Assembly (NCBI RefSeq): GCF_000733855.1
Contig: NZ_JPOJ01000001.1
Coordinates: 1,178,001 to 1,242,000, forward strand
DNA: 64,000 bases
Source: Methylomicrobium agile
GTDB lineage: Bacteria > Pseudomonadota > Gammaproteobacteria > Methylococcales > Methylomonadaceae
Direction: 5' to 3'
In this document: positions 5,556 through 61,387 of the stretch, piece after piece
How positions within the stretch are numbered: the stretch's first letter is position 1
Layout: every line of letters begins with the position of its first letter
The notes under the pieces: generated by a model
Database searches by the model: none
What the model was told of the DNA's origin: nothing
What the model saw: only the letters and a program-made list of their open reading frames with translations
Made by a program: the position numbers and the translations under genes

Positions 5556-5804
5556 TTATTCCACCGCCACCGATTTCGCCAAGTTTCTTGGCTGGTCGAC
5601 ATCGGTGCCTTTCAATACCGCGACATGGCAGGCCAGAAGCTCAGGGCCTTGGCCTGTTCGTTCCGATGCACCCGCTCCAGATGGCTAAGCGGGTTCCGGT
5701 CGCTCGTTCCGAGCGCTTCGTCCTCGGTTTCGGGCTGGCTCGTCACTACCGCCGCCTGTTCCGCGACCGCCATTTCGATGATATCGGTCAGGTAATATTC
5801 GAAC
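5556..5804 (-). pseudogene. Chimeric glmS/glmU fragment (broken duplicate)
   Basis: Read on the minus strand, 5804-~5643 encodes ~50 residues close to internal GlmU (EYYLTDIIEMAVAEQ... [14 protein letters not shown]). Next to it, 5640-5556 encodes the last 23 residues of GlmS (ending LAKSVAVE and TAA) in a different frame. The genuine genes at 8438-11639 hold both segments ~2.4 kb apart, so the copy has lost everything between. Several differences from the resident genes (LAKSVAVE versus LAKSVTVE, ND to SD and others) suggest an old duplication or DNA from a relative. The GlmU part begins two bases after the Doc toxin stop codon. Confidence 0.8.
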
Positions 5805-6197
5805 TTAAGTGATTTCCATCGGCTTCGTATTGGCTCTAATCCAGTCTGCAAATGCTGTTTCGGACAGACGCCCTTCCGCAAGCCTTAACATGGCAACCAC
5901 GCAAGACGGATCATCGGCCATCAATTTCTGACCGTTCAAAGCCAGAAACAGCTCGGTAACCGTAAAGGCTGTTCGTTTGTTGCCGTCAATAAAAGGATGA
6001 TTACGAGTAAGATCAAAGCCATAGGCGGCAGCCGGCGCCGACAAATCCGGGTCATCGTAACTGGCTGAATTTCGAGGGCGAAACAGCGCCGATTCCAACA
6101 AGCCACGCTCACGAATCCCCACCGCGCCGCCATGCTCTGCAAGGTGTTCCTCATGCAAAGCAAGAACAACGGATTCCTCGACCCAAACAACCGGCAT
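5805..6197 (-). CDS. doc: Doc/Fic-family toxin (death-on-curing type)
   Basis: A 130-residue Fic-fold protein with the central motif HPFIDGNKRTA (~78-88), matching HxFx(D/N)GNKR of Fic/Doc proteins, and the Doc-type start (WVEESVVLALHEEHLAEHGG, then GIRERGLLESAL). Family members transfer a phosphate or AMP to translation factors. The start overlaps the antitoxin stop (TAATG), the usual antitoxin-first order. The stop is followed at once by the glmU-like fragment, so the module sits at a recombination junction. Confidence 0.88.
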   Translation of the reverse strand: MPVVWVEESVVLALHEEHLAEHGGAVGIRERGLLESALFRPRNSASYDDPDLSAPAAAYGFDLTRNHPFIDGNKRTAFTVTELFLALNGQKLMADDPSCVVAMLRLAEGRLSETAFADWIRANTKPMEIT

Positions 6198-32852: not shown

Positions 32853-35000
32853 ATGGCAAAAGGCCTGCTCGAACAACTTCCCGGCATCGTCGCCGAAGGG
32901 CGGCAAACTGCCGAAAAAATATTGGAAAGCCTGGAAGGCCGTCACCGCATCACACTGCAAACCCGCGAATGGGTGTTGTCTGCCAGAGACAATACCCAGA
33001 ATGATTTGTTTCAAAGCGTAGGTCGGGTTAGCGATAGCGTAACCCGACAAGTCGAAGCCACAAATGTCGGGTTACGGCTAACGCCTCGGCAATTGCTCCT
33101 GCATTGCTCTAGCTCTGTCCATAGACCACCCTTTAATGGTGGCATCCCTGCAAGTCGTAACCCGACCTACACATCGGATCAAACTTGGCGCAATCGCCTG
33201 ATCCACGGCGATAATCTGCTGGCGATGGCCGCACTGCTGGCCGGCGACGACGAGACGCCCAGCCTGCGCGGCAAAATCGATCTGATCTACATCGACCCAC
33301 CGTTCGATTCCAAAGCCGACTGCCGCACCAAAATCACCCTGCCCGGCATGGAACTGGAACAAAAACCGGCCGTGATCGAACAGTTCGCCTATTCCGATAC
33401 CTGGGCGGACGGCACGGCGTCCTATCTGGCGATGATCACGCCGCGCCTGATCCTGATGCGCGAGCTATTGCGCGACACCGGCTCGATCTATGTACATCTG
33501 GATTGGCATGTGGGGCATTATGTAAAATTGGTTCTGGACGAGGTGTTCGGGAAGGATCATTTCATTAACGAGATCATTTGGCATTACCGAAAATGGTCTC
33601 CTCAATCAAAAAACTTCCAACGTAACCACGACACCATTTTTTGGTATGGGAAAAATGCGGAAAATCGTCACTTCATTACCGAATTTCAAGAACAGCCGGC
33701 GGGGACTTTAAAACCAGGGAAAGAAAAGAAACGGCAAACCGTTTTTGATGAGTCGGGTAAGCGCCCCGCAACCCGTGCAGATGGTGAGGCGACCGGAAGC
33801 TCACTGGCCGATGTATGGGATGGCGGTATTTGGAATATCTCCATGATCAACCCCGCCGCGATTGAACGCGTCGACTACGCAACACAAAAACCTGAACAAT
33901 TGCTCAAACGAATTCTTCAACATGCCTGCCCCGAAAAAGGTTTAGTCGCCGACTTCTTCGGCGGTTCCGGCACCACCGCCGCGGTCGCGGAGAAGTTGGG
34001 CCGCCGCTGGATTACCGCCGATCTCGGCAAACCGGCCTGCATGATCATGCGCAAGCGCCTGATCGACCGGAACGCCCGGCCGTTTTTGTATCAGGCCATC
34101 GGCGATTATCAGGCCGAAGCCACTAAATCGCTGGGACAGCAATCCAAAATCGGCGAGCTGGCGCCAATCGTCCTGCAACTGTTCGGCGCGCTGCCGCTGG
34201 CGCCGGAAGACAATCCGGAGCACAATCTGGGTTATCTCCCCGCAGGCGCAGCGTCCGTAGGTCGGGTTAGCGACAGCGTAACCCGACTAGTCGAAGCCGC
34301 AAACGTCGGGTTACGGCTTACGCCTAACCCGACCTACACAAGTGCCGAGGCAAAAAATAAAACCTTGGTCTACGCCGATTCTCCCAACAAACTCACCGGC
34401 GCGGCGACGCTGAAAAAAGCCATCGCCCAGCGCGACACACTGATGGGCGGCTGGGATAAAGTCGTGGTGCTGGGCTGGAATTTCGAGCCATCCATCGGCG
34501 AAACCCTTGCCGCGTTGAACGACGACCGCCTGGAAGTCCGGGTGATTCCGCCGGATTTGCCGGACCGGCTGAGAAAGAAAGGCGGCCTCGACAAGCTGAA
34601 AGGCGCCGTGCGTTTCGCCGGCTTGCAATATCTGACCATCAAACCGGTGCAAAGGCAGCGGCAAGGCGAAGACGAAATCTTATCCGTCGCCCTCGACAAT
34701 TACATCCTGCTCTCCCCGGAAGCCATCAACCTCGACGCAACCAACCGCGCCAAATTGCACGGCATCATCGACAGCGAACCGTTGGCGCTGCTCGAATACT
34801 GGGCGGTGGACCCAGATTACGACGGCAAACTGTTCCGCTCGGTCTGGCAGAATTATCGCGGCGACAACGACGACCCGCTGCGTGTGGCGACCTTGGCCTG
34901 GCTCGTCGTGCCAGCCAAAAACGGCAGCCGCAAGGTGTGCGTGCGGGCGGTGGACGTGTTCGGCTTTGAAGCGGAAGTCGTCGTCGAGGTAGACGCATGA
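32853..35000 (+). CDS. mod: Type III restriction-modification methyltransferase (Mod)
   Basis: 715 residues. It is a beta-class N6-adenine methyltransferase: catalytic motif IV IDLIYIDPPFDSK with DPPF at ~148-151, then the SAM-binding motif I ADFFGGSGTTAAVAEKLGRR at ~367. I chose the ATG at 32853 because AGGAT precedes it; a TTG at 32805 is possible. It overlaps the Res gene by four bases. Two in-frame palindrome insertions add ~50 residues at 56-106 and ~27 at 469-495, both outside the catalytic motifs (VGRVSDSVTR, VGLRLTP). Whether the enzyme is still active is unclear. Confidence 0.88.
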   Translation: MAKGLLEQLPGIVAEGRQTAEKILESLEGRHRITLQTREWVLSARDNTQNDLFQSVGRVSDSVTRQVEATNVGLRLTPRQLLLHCSSSVHRPPFNGGIPASRNPTYTSDQTWRNRLIHGDNLLAMAALLAGDDETPSLRGKIDLIYIDPPFDSKADCRTKITLPGMELEQKPAVIEQFAYSDTWADGTASYLAMITPRLILMRELLRDTGSIYVHLDWHVGHYVKLVLDEVFGKDHFINEIIWHYRKWSPQSKNFQRNHDTIFWYGKNAENRHFITEFQEQPAGTLKPGKEKKRQTVFDESGKRPATRADGEATGSSLADVWDGGIWNISMINPAAIERVDYATQKPEQLLKRILQHACPEKGLVADFFGGSGTTAAVAEKLGRRWITADLGKPACMIMRKRLIDRNARPFLYQAIGDYQAEATKSLGQQSKIGELAPIVLQLFGALPLAPEDNPEHNLGYLPAGAASVGRVSDSVTRLVEAANVGLRLTPNPTYTSAEAKNKTLVYADSPNKLTGAATLKKAIAQRDTLMGGWDKVVVLGWNFEPSIGETLAALNDDRLEVRVIPPDLPDRLRKKGGLDKLKGAVRFAGLQYLTIKPVQRQRQGEDEILSVALDNYILLSPEAINLDATNRAKLHGIIDSEPLALLEYWAVDPDYDGKLFRSVWQNYRGDNDDPLRVATLAWLVVPAKNGSRKVCVRAVDVFGFEAEVVVEVDA
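33019..33170. repeat. REP/BIME-like element inside mod, copy 1 (family C, enlarged)
   Basis: It starts GTAGGTCGGGTTAGCG and ends CGTAACCCGACCTAC. The first hairpin (GTCGGGTTA ... TAACCCGAC) is intact; an extra ~70-base segment splits the second. It is read through in frame as protein. Confidence 0.8.
34257..34337. repeat. REP/BIME-like element inside mod, copy 2 (family C)
   Basis: 81 bases (27 codons), GTAG at the left and CTAC at the right, with two hairpins of the GTCGGGTTA / TAACCCGAC type. The translated peptide VGRVSDSVTRLVEAANVGL nearly repeats the one in copy 1. Confidence 0.85.
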
Positions 35001-37921
35001 GCGGCAATTCGCAACTGGCGCTGGCTGCCGGGCTGACCGACCAAACCCGGCAATTGTGCATCGGCCTCGAAAACGGCGTTGCCGCTATTTTCGACCAGGT
35101 CACGCCGACCACGGCCGCGCTTTTACACGGGTGGTTCGGCGAGGAAGCCTGTGCGATACGAAGCCTGAATTTTCATCCGGGGCAAAAACAGGCGATTTTG
35201 AATACTATCACCGCCCACGAAATTTATGCCGCTGCCGACTTGCAAAGCCTTTATCGACAGGCCGCGCCCGCTACGCTATCGACCGGCACGCGTTTGGCCG
35301 AAGTATCGCAAAGCAAGCACCGGCATCCGAAATACTGCTTGAAAATGGCGGCCGGCACCGGCAAGACCTGGGTGCTGCAGGCCTTGCTGATCTGGCAGTT
35401 GCTGAACAAGAACGCGGCGCTCGCGGAAGGCGTGGACGACGCGCGTTTTACCCGGCATTTTCTGATCGTAACCCCCGGCTTGATCGCTTACGACCGCCTG
35501 CTGGATGCATTCTGCGGCAAGCAGACGGAGGGCGGGCGCGATTTCGCGACCTCGGACATCGCGCAATACGCCGAGCTGTTCGTGCCGGAAAACCATCGCG
35601 AGGCGGTGTTCCATTTCGTGCGCGGCAATGTCTGCGACAAAACCGAAATCGGCCTGAAAACCACCGGCAACGGCATGATCGCGATTGCCGACTGGCACTT
35701 GCTTCGGGAAGCCGGCACGGAAGCCTTCGGCGAAACCAAACTGGAAACGCCGGGCGCCGCGCCCGACCCGCAAGCGGTCGTCAACGCCCTGCTGCCGGTC
35801 ATGCCGGGCAAAGCGGCGGGGAATAGTCTCGACGTGCTGGACAAACGTTTCGCACGCGGCGACGTACTGGATTTTCTGGCCGGCCTGCCGGAGCTCATGG
35901 TGTTCAACCACGCGGCGCTTCACATTCACGACCTCAAGCGCGAGAGCGAAACCACCGAGGTGGAATGGCAACCGAGCCTGACGCGGATCGCCGAGAACAA
36001 GGACCGCCGCTTCATGCAAGTGGATTTTTCGGCGACGCCCTATAACACCGTGGGTTCCGGCAAAAACAAACGCAAGGTGTATTTTCCGCACATCATCGCC
36101 GATTTCGACCTGAAAACCGCGCTGCGGCAGGGCCTGGTAAAGTCGCCGGTATTGGATAAACGCAAGAAAATCGGCGCGCTGCCGCTGGAATTCAAGGCCG
36201 AACGCGACGAGAACGGCAATCCGATCTTAAGCGCAGGCCAGCGGGTGATGCTGCGCGCCGGCTTGCAGAAGCTACGCCAGCTGGAAGCCGGTTTCGCCCG
36301 CCTCGATCCCAACCGGCATCCGAAAATGCTGGTGATCTGCGAAGACGCGGCGGTGTTGCCGCGGGTCGTGAATTTCTTCCGCGCGGAAGGACTGGCGGAA
36401 ATGGATATCATCGCGATCGACTCCGGCAAAAAGGTCGAACTGGGCGAACAGGACTGGGCGCGGGTGCGTGAACGCCTGTTCGAGGTCGACCGGCATGCTA
36501 CGCCGCGCATCATCGTCAGCGTATCGATGCTGCGCGAAGGTTTCGACGTCAACAACATCTGCGTGATCGTGCCGCTGCGTTCCTCGCAAGCGCCGGTTTT
36601 ACTGGAACAGAGCATCGGCCGCGGCTTGCGGCTGATGTGGCGCGAGCCTGAATTCGCCGACAGCAAGCGTGAAAACCGCGAACGCATCGCCAGCGGCCGG
36701 GAACCGGACAGCCTGATCGATATTCTCTGGATCGTCGAGCATCCGGCGTTCGCGCCGTTTTACGCGGAATGGCTGCAGGAAGGTTTGGCGGGAACCGTCG
36801 GCGAAGAACGGCATACCGCCAGCGGCGTCGGCGACATGATTTCGGTCAACTTGCGCGAAGGCTTCGAGGCGTTCGATTTCGCGATACCGTTCATTTTGCA
36901 TGAGGCGGAAGCGTGGCTGGAACATCGGGAACTCGCTATTGGCAAGCTGCCGCCGTTTTCCGCGTTGAGCCCGGCGCAACTGAAGGCGATGCTCGGCAAA
37001 GGCGATGCGTTCGTCTCCCGGGATTTGCAAAGCAGCGCGCTGTTCGGCGATTACCGCATCGACGGCGCGGTGATAAAGGTAACGGGCTATAACGATTTTC
37101 TGTCGCGCCTCACCCGGCGTCTTGCCCAGGCGCTCAGCCGGCCGCTACCGAAAGGCAGCCGGATTGCCGCCCCTTATCAGCAAGTCAATACCGCCGAATT
37201 GGCCGGATGGCTGGAAAGCTATATTCGCGAACGCTTGTTCGGCCGGCCGTTCGAGCCTTTTGACGGTGAAAACTGGCGCCTGCTGCTGTTGCAGCCGGTC
37301 GTCGACCACATCACCCGAGTAATGGCGCCGGCTTTGCTCGAAGCGGCGCAAACGCATGCCGGTAGTACGGGCGAAGTGCATTACCGGCGCCTGTCGGAGC
37401 TTAACCAATGGCCGATGCGGGAAAGCTGTTCGCTTGCGGTCGACAAGTGCATTTATCCGCGCCTGCCCTATGCCGCCCGCAATGGCGACCTGGAGAAAGC
37501 CTTGATCGAGTGGGCGAACCTCGACGACAGCGTCCGGGCATTTTGTAAAATCAGCGCAACCCGGCATGATTTTGCGAAGCGGCGCTATGTCAGGGAAGAC
37601 GGCGTGTTCGCGTTTTATGCGCCGGATTTTCTGCTGCGTACCGGCCAGGCGGTTTATCTGGTGGAAACCCAGGCGCAAGCGCAGATTTCATCGCCGAACG
37701 CGCAAAGAAAACTGACAGCGGCGGCGGCCTGGTGCGAGAGGATCAACGCGTTGCCGGGCAAAGAGCGTTCGCATTTGACATGGCATTATGCGCCGCTGGG
37801 CGAAAGCCTGTTTTACGAATGGCGGCATAAAGGCGAGCGCCTGGCCGAGCTTTGCGACTTCGCCCGCCTAAGCGCGCCGGTTTTGCACGATTCGCAGAAC
37901 CGCCTGAAATCGGAGCTGTAG
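34997..37921 (+). CDS. res: Type III restriction endonuclease subunit (Res)
   Basis: 974 residues. A superfamily 2 helicase core carries Walker A MAAGTGKTWVL (~117-127), VDFSATPYN (~340-348), MLREGFDVNN (~511) and motif VI QSIGRGLRLMW (~536-546). A PD-(D/E)XK-like nuclease lies near the C-terminus (YAPDFLLRTGQAVYLVETQ, ~875-891). The expected catalytic lysine of ExK is glutamine here (ETQ), so cleavage activity is uncertain. The start overlaps the mod stop (ATGA). The stop TAG lies in the GTAG of the first unit of the downstream palindrome array. Confidence 0.9.
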   Translation: MSGNSQLALAAGLTDQTRQLCIGLENGVAAIFDQVTPTTAALLHGWFGEEACAIRSLNFHPGQKQAILNTITAHEIYAAADLQSLYRQAAPATLSTGTRLAEVSQSKHRHPKYCLKMAAGTGKTWVLQALLIWQLLNKNAALAEGVDDARFTRHFLIVTPGLIAYDRLLDAFCGKQTEGGRDFATSDIAQYAELFVPENHREAVFHFVRGNVCDKTEIGLKTTGNGMIAIADWHLLREAGTEAFGETKLETPGAAPDPQAVVNALLPVMPGKAAGNSLDVLDKRFARGDVLDFLAGLPELMVFNHAALHIHDLKRESETTEVEWQPSLTRIAENKDRRFMQVDFSATPYNTVGSGKNKRKVYFPHIIADFDLKTALRQGLVKSPVLDKRKKIGALPLEFKAERDENGNPILSAGQRVMLRAGLQKLRQLEAGFARLDPNRHPKMLVICEDAAVLPRVVNFFRAEGLAEMDIIAIDSGKKVELGEQDWARVRERLFEVDRHATPRIIVSVSMLREGFDVNNICVIVPLRSSQAPVLLEQSIGRGLRLMWREPEFADSKRENRERIASGREPDSLIDILWIVEHPAFAPFYAEWLQEGLAGTVGEERHTASGVGDMISVNLREGFEAFDFAIPFILHEAEAWLEHRELAIGKLPPFSALSPAQLKAMLGKGDAFVSRDLQSSALFGDYRIDGAVIKVTGYNDFLSRLTRRLAQALSRPLPKGSRIAAPYQQVNTAELAGWLESYIRERLFGRPFEPFDGENWRLLLLQPVVDHITRVMAPALLEAAQTHAGSTGEVHYRRLSELNQWPMRESCSLAVDKCIYPRLPYAARNGDLEKALIEWANLDDSVRAFCKISATRHDFAKRRYVREDGVFAFYAPDFLLRTGQAVYLVETQAQAQISSPNAQRKLTAAAAWCERINALPGKERSHLTWHYAPLGESLFYEWRHKGERLAELCDFARLSAPVLHDSQNRLKSEL

Positions 37922-38262
37922 GGCGTTTTCGCGATAGCAAAACGCCGAAGGCTTCAAAGCGATGGCGGATTGCCTGACGGCGAATCCGCCCTACCAGCGT
38001 TGTAGGGTGTTTTCGCGATAGCAAAACACCAATAGACTTCAAAACTATGTGTGGCGGATTGCCTGGCGGCGAATCCGCCCTACCAGCGTTGTAGGGTGTT
38101 TTCGCGATAGCAAAACACCAATAGACTTCAAAGCTATGTGTGGCGGATTGCCTGGCGGCGAATCCGCCCTACCAGCGTTGTAGGGTGTTTTCGCGACAGC
38201 AAAACACCAATAGACTTCAAAGCTATGTGTGGCGGATTGCCTGGCGGCGAATCCGCCCTACC
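37918..38262. repeat. Tandem array of four GTAG-flanked palindrome units (family A)
   Basis: Units start at 37918, 38002, 38091 and 38180 (spacing 84, 89, 89). Each reads GTAGGG(C/T)GTTTTCGCG ... GAATCCGCCCTAC and contains two hairpins, GCGTTTT/AAAACGC and GGCGGATT/AATCCGCC, in inverted orientation. The array fills the whole gap between res and the DcmR-like gene. Confidence 0.88.
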
Positions 38263-60828: not shown

Positions 60829-61387
60829 CTTTTGGAAGTTCTTTCGATCTTTTTCAATGTGACGGGGAAAAGAGGTTCAGCAACCTGTAGGGCGTTTTCG
60901 CGATAGCAAAACACCAACCCCCTTCAAAGCCATGGCGGATGGCCTGGCGGCGAATCCGCCCTACAAGGGCTTTTGGAAGTTCTTTCGATCTTTTTCAACG
61001 TGACGGGGAAAAGAGGTTCAGCAACCTGTAGGGCGTTTTCGCGATAGCAAAACGCCAACCCCCTTCAAAGCCATGGCGGATGGCCTGGCGGCGAATCCGC
61101 CCTACAAGGGCTTTTGGAAGTTCTTTCGATCTTTTTCAACGCGACGGGGAAAAGAGGTTCAGCAACCTGTAGGGCGTTTTCGCGATAGCAAAACGCCAAC
61201 CCCCTTCAAAGCCATGGCGGATGGCCTGGCGGCAAATCCGCCCTACAAGGGCTTTTGGAAGTTCTTTCGATCTTTTTCAATGTGACGGGGAAAAGAGGTT
61301 CAGCAATCTGTAGGGCGTTTTCGCGATAGCAAAACGCCGACAGCCTTCAAAGCCATGGCGGATTGCCTAGCGGCGAATCCGCCCTAC
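60829..61387. repeat. Tandem array of four GTAG-flanked palindromes with 141-base period (family A)
   Basis: Core units start GTAGGGCGTTTTCGCG at 60887, 61028, 61169 and (after a C-to-T change just before it) 61310, each ending GAATCCGCCCTAC ~82 bases later. A 58-base spacer beginning AAGGGCTTTTGGAAGTTCTT separates them and also precedes the first. The core is the same as in the array after res. Short open frames inside are repeat translations, not genes. Confidence 0.9.

Follow-up and report, generated by a model that had tools for sequence, protein, structure and literature searches.

In-frame palindromic repeats in the linkers of a Type III-like DNA methyltransferase from Methylomicrobium agile

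Intragenic palindromic repeats in described systems

The occurrence of palindromic repeats within genes has been described before. According to PMC3733652 (BMC Genomics 2013), GTAG/CGTC REPs are present within genes, with a preference for proteins of DNA synthesis and repair, and two Xanthomonas recB genes have different REPs at nearly the same position; the palindromic elements of Rickettsia are cited there (refs 13, 14) as a precedent for in-frame elements in many coding genes. Neither restriction nor methyltransferase genes come up in the main text of that article. A search of the open-access literature yielded, among the matches listed, no report of REPs inside a Type III mod gene, and no paper on translated repeat peptides was found by literature search.

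The mod gene described here is located in a window of 64,000 nucleotides (the whole stretch of DNA that was analysed) of the Methylomicrobium agile genome. Its case resembles the known intragenic GTAG/CGTC REPs (PMC3733652) in the in-frame GTAG-tagged doublets, often of 20–30 amino acids, in the presence of double insertions within one gene and in the bias towards DNA-processing proteins. It differs from them in that a single protein family harbours about ten repeat families at four recurrent sites, including nested insertions, and in the use of tree-based counts and a control gene. The Rickettsia RPEs (as cited in PMC3733652) are likewise palindromic elements that lie in frame within coding genes, but they are distributed over many unrelated genes of one genus, whereas the mod repeats are found in one protein family of many species; the likeness is one of mode of action. 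With the REPIN/RAYT systems the mod element shares the GTAG end, the inverted pair of REPs, the dispersed copies and the presence of RAYT-type transposases in the genome. Unlike those systems, it lies in a coding region, and no cognate RAYT was found among the Y1_Tnp matches of the genome. Intragenic REPs are a known phenomenon; what is new here is how many independent families and events have accumulated at fixed sites of one protein family.

The mod gene and its two inserts

The positions of mod, res, the inserts and the linkers are given in Table 1. An alternative TTG start upstream of the mod ATG would yield a protein of 731 residues. The mod product matches PF01555 (E=1e-40) and the MTase_III profile (E=4e-76), and its closest solved structure is that of EcoP15I Mod (4zcf_A, E=6e-18). 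The DPPF sequence (motif IV) precedes DFFGGSGTT (motif I), which is the motif order of beta-class amino-methyltransferases. The res gene adjoins mod directly at the 3' side, with an overlap of 4 nt at the mod stop codon, and its ORF is open. On the basis of these features mod is predicted to encode a Type III-like Mod, acting in methylation and, together with Res, in restriction. A scan for promoters and terminators gave signal at chance level.

Table 1. Location of the genes, inserts and empty linkers in the window
Feature	Position	Strand	Remarks
mod, Type III-like DNA methyltransferase	32853–35000	+	ATG 32853, stop 35000; 715 aa; carries both inserts
GTAG REP doublet (REPIN-like) copy 1, 5' part	33018–33085	+	In frame from codon 56; linker V1; 93% to copy 2; multicopy
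Insertion of another multicopy repeat (TCGGCAATTGCTCCTGCATTGCTC...), nested in copy 1	33086–33157	+	72 nt; frame kept
Copy 1, 3' end (TAACCCGACCTAC)	33158–33170	+	68 + 13 = 81 nt, as long as copy 2
Linker V2	33342–33347	+	After motif IV; empty here; CCCTC-type palindromes in L008, L012, L026, L066, L077
GTAG REP doublet copy 2	34257–34337	+	81 nt, 27 codons; in frame; linker V4
Linker V5	34659–34664	+	Near residue 619; empty here; about 23 homologues carry palindromic repeats at this site
res, Type III-like restriction helicase	34997–37921	+	974 aa; PF04851 (ResIII), REase_III

An earlier note on this DNA had recognised two palindromic elements inside mod that leave the reading frame unbroken, and both are indeed in-frame copies of a multicopy REP doublet. 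The first segment comprises 153 nt or 51 codons and starts with GTA, codon 56, at 33018 rather than at 33019 as the note had placed it, while its end at 33170 was correctly assigned. What the note had not described is that this segment consists of an 81-nt element split by 72 nt of another repeat. The second element, as had been noted, measures exactly 27 codons. All three insertions (81, 72 and 81 nt, corresponding to 27, 24 and 27 codons) preserve the frame. Copies 1 and 2 are 93% identical across 70 shared nt, and the matching peptides VGRVSDSVTR and VGLRLTP reported earlier are encoded by both. Each palindromic unit bears the GTAG tetranucleotide at its outer end (GTAGGTCGGGTTAG...CTAACCCGACCTAC). 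Two such units, inverted relative to each other and separated by a short spacer, make up the element, an architecture that is supported by the RNA fold of the 81-mer (−48.5 kcal/mol, compared to −23.9 kcal/mol for shuffles; z=−7.2). Of the nested repeat, query positions 64–128 recur at many other places in the genome, and the same repeat also interrupts a different GTAG element at locus L178.

The inserts are situated away from the catalytic motifs, in agreement with the earlier claim, DPPF and DFFGGSGTT being located elsewhere. In an AlphaFold model of Mod both inserts have pLDDT values of mostly 25–40, with better values for the flanks on most sides. The very low confidence fits disordered loops, but the evidence for disorder is weak because the mean pLDDT of the whole model is only 61.6. 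Since the inserts are 51 and 27 residues long and predicted to be poorly ordered, one might suppose that they have inactivated mod and that the ORF is decaying. This is very unlikely in view of the 715 open codons, the intact catalytic motifs, the open res gene and the substitution pattern relative to the mod gene of the sister species (L001), with dN 0.057, dS 0.224 and a dN/dS ratio of about 0.26. Judging from these rates, mod is under purifying selection.

Genomic copies and close relatives

The 4.5-Mb genome contains the 81-mer at 32 separate positions, which excludes a product of chance. The full-length genomic copies that were checked (among L083–L107) lie outside long ORFs. None of the 18 other full-length genomic copies has both a length that is a multiple of three and an open frame when all six frames are considered (0/108 copy-frames); the length of both mod copies is divisible by three, and they are open in exactly the frame that is used. 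Copy 2 is nearest to copy 1 (93%), the other genomic copies reaching at most 86% identity over a comparable length. In the simplest reading, copy 2 would be derived from copy 1, or both would stem from one unusual open variant. The element at L132, considered as a third intragenic copy, probably is not one, since the protein there is likely to begin with MKDIDWSD, downstream of the element.

The nearest homologue, from Methylomicrobium sp. RS1 (L001), shows 91% nucleotide identity to mod outside the two linkers. It carries the 81-nt element at V1 without the nested repeat, and nothing at V4. In L005, a Methylomonas MAG, half of the element is found at site 1, and in both genomes the element is multicopy. 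The related versions in L001 and L005 indicate that the insertion at site 1 is the older one. The nested repeat and copy 2 are probably younger than copy 1, because L001 has the plain element at V1 and none at V4. Copy 1 at V1, common to the sister species, would thus have come first; later, in the present lineage, the second repeat family would have inserted 72 nt in frame into copy 1, and copy 2 would have appeared at V4, probably derived from copy 1.

The earlier note had argued that the same peptides in homologues from distant species would point to an original Mod domain, palindromic by coincidence, rather than to an insertion. Such peptides do occur, but at site 1 only, as the related versions in L001 (of the same genus) and L005; all other homologues have a different sequence there or none. 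Alignment with Mod homologues, which the note had suggested, shows that almost all others lack both elements or have other repeats instead. This alignment and the multicopy search, in which the same DNA recurred across the genome with the checked copies outside long ORFs, refute an original domain, the likelihood of which is negligible. The claim that intergenic-type REPs have here turned into protein sequence thus holds.

The elements may have spread by transposition, for the GTAG families with the help of a RAYT. Thirteen Y1_Tnp (RAYT-type) matches above the cut-off are present in the genome; a cognate RAYT is not evident among them, as 0/13 are flanked by the mod-type REP. One locus, L180 (G000:C1:2707000-2711500), encodes a 189-residue RAYT-type transposase with many GTAGGTCGGGCAAC/GTTGCCCGACCTAC repeats on both sides. 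These belong to a GTAG REP family that is related to, but different from, the mod REP, and L180 is the best local RAYT candidate. At L179 (G000:C1:953120-953860) a unit of ~208 bp, made up of a REP doublet together with a portion of the nested repeat, is tandemly repeated. Within the window, arrays of another GTAG-tagged repeat (GTAGGGCGGATTCGCC...) occur at 37900–38261, just 3' of res, and at 60880–61387, with spacings of 89 and 141 bases.

Palindromic repeats in four linkers of Mod homologues

About 80 homologues were aligned and traits were counted on 82 genes, with repeat families assigned by eye from their DNA signatures. Recognisable palindromic repeats are present at V1, V2, V4 or V5 in 31 of the 82 homologues, and 51 have none. 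The earlier description of repeats becoming protein as rare therefore needs correction: insertions are frequent in this family, and intragenic REPs had been reported previously (PMC3733652). About ten unrelated palindromic repeat families are distributed over the four linkers, mainly in Proteobacteria, and the sites of both inserts in the window are variable linkers that hold other palindromes in other species. When the tree is built with the linkers excluded, the minimum numbers of state changes on it are 8 (V1), 5 (V2), 7 (V4) and 21 (V5), at least 41 in total. Most families are multicopy in the genomes of their carriers; for GTAGGGTGCG in G094 and AAATCCCCC in G246 only the self-match was found in the carrier genome at E≤1e-7.

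Linker V1 contains GTAGGTTGGGGTGAGC (L153), GTAGGTCGGGATTTATCCCGAC (L008), GTRGGAGCGAYGCCC (L006, L013), the CCCTCTCCC type (L043, L156) and TGTCATTCTGCGCGG (L069). At V4, GTGGGAGCGGCTTTAGCCGCGA (L153, L006) and the CCCTCACCCC type (L031, L012, L066, L156) are observed, and at V5 doublets of CGTCATTCCSGC with stems of 28–29 bp (L007, L008), GAGCCTGTCGAAG (L027) and GTAGGGTGCG (L019, L156). In three genes, L008, L153 and L156, three of the linkers are occupied by repeats. Translation of the CCCTC family gives LPSPSGRGVGGEG at V2, SPQPSPKGRG at V4 and LTPALSQGERE at V5. The reading frame of a single repeat varies with its site, and conservation at the peptide level is absent; what moves is consequently the DNA element, with the protein merely tolerating it. 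In-frame nesting may have occurred a second time at V5 of L008 (locus positions near 5700–5840), where a CTCCCCGC-GCGGGGAG hairpin lies inside a CGTCATTCC doublet.

Long palindromes, defined by exact arms of 12 nt, were compared with synonymous-codon shuffles. They are present in 13 of 83 mod genes, against a mean expectation of 0.8 (maximum 3). Of the 18 places, 16 lie within the four linkers, which make up 9.5% of the length, a statistic that is descriptive, given the assignment of families by eye and the use of the same data to recognise V2 and V5. The res genes, used as a control, show no palindrome excess (5/72 genes, 2.85 expected). For 12-nt arms the remaining ORFs of the loci slightly exceed the shuffles (6 vs 2.5), and their palindromes with 13-nt arms contain no recognisable repeat families. 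In BLAST comparisons of mod with the masked loci only linker matches were used, since the unmasked conserved N-termini of mod also matched.

Very probably, the linkers that house the two GTAG REP doublets are disordered parts of a functional Type III Mod, and palindromes that keep the frame survive there because the linkers are flexible. Tolerance of this kind, which may well be neutral, is the most likely explanation of the pattern. The host gene would act as a sieve: mobile palindromes would land anywhere, and the survivors would be those that keep the frame in flexible linkers, and V1, V2, V4 and V5 would therefore have gathered about ten unrelated families independently. Rather improbably, the linkers are themselves selected or targeted, as recombination tracts between alleles, as spacers whose length tunes Mod-Res/DNA contacts, or through a transposition preference. 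The very high recurrence of about ten families at four sites speaks for such a role, as do the three-site carriers and the over-representation of other DNA-processing proteins among REP hosts (PMC3733652). However, families, frames and lengths differ by site without a common peptide or target, the 51 homologues mentioned above are free of repeats, and plasmid homologues with short linkers have none either. It is similarly doubtful that recruitment has gone beyond tolerance to a benefit, with the repeats serving, for instance, as homology tracts through which recognition segments are exchanged, or keeping the Mod domains at an adjustable distance.

In this family, insertions have in effect scanned a Type III methyltransferase under natural conditions: dozens of independent events mark its permissive sites, and non-coding repeats regularly become protein, as filler in whatever frame stays open. 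Whether DNA-processing enzymes host repeats by tolerance or by benefit thereby becomes testable.

A class-wide search for an independent test sample returned the window's own genome only. Further material came from three viral-collection loci and eight plasmid records, from which six plasmid homologues could be aligned. These are more distant, have minimal linkers and contain no palindromic repeats; they neither confirm nor break the linker pattern. In L186, L188, L189 and L191 the plasmid mod homologues come after a RelE/ParE-HigA toxin-antitoxin pair and a recombinase, and in L186 and L188, where res is short or missing, an IS1380-type element comes next.
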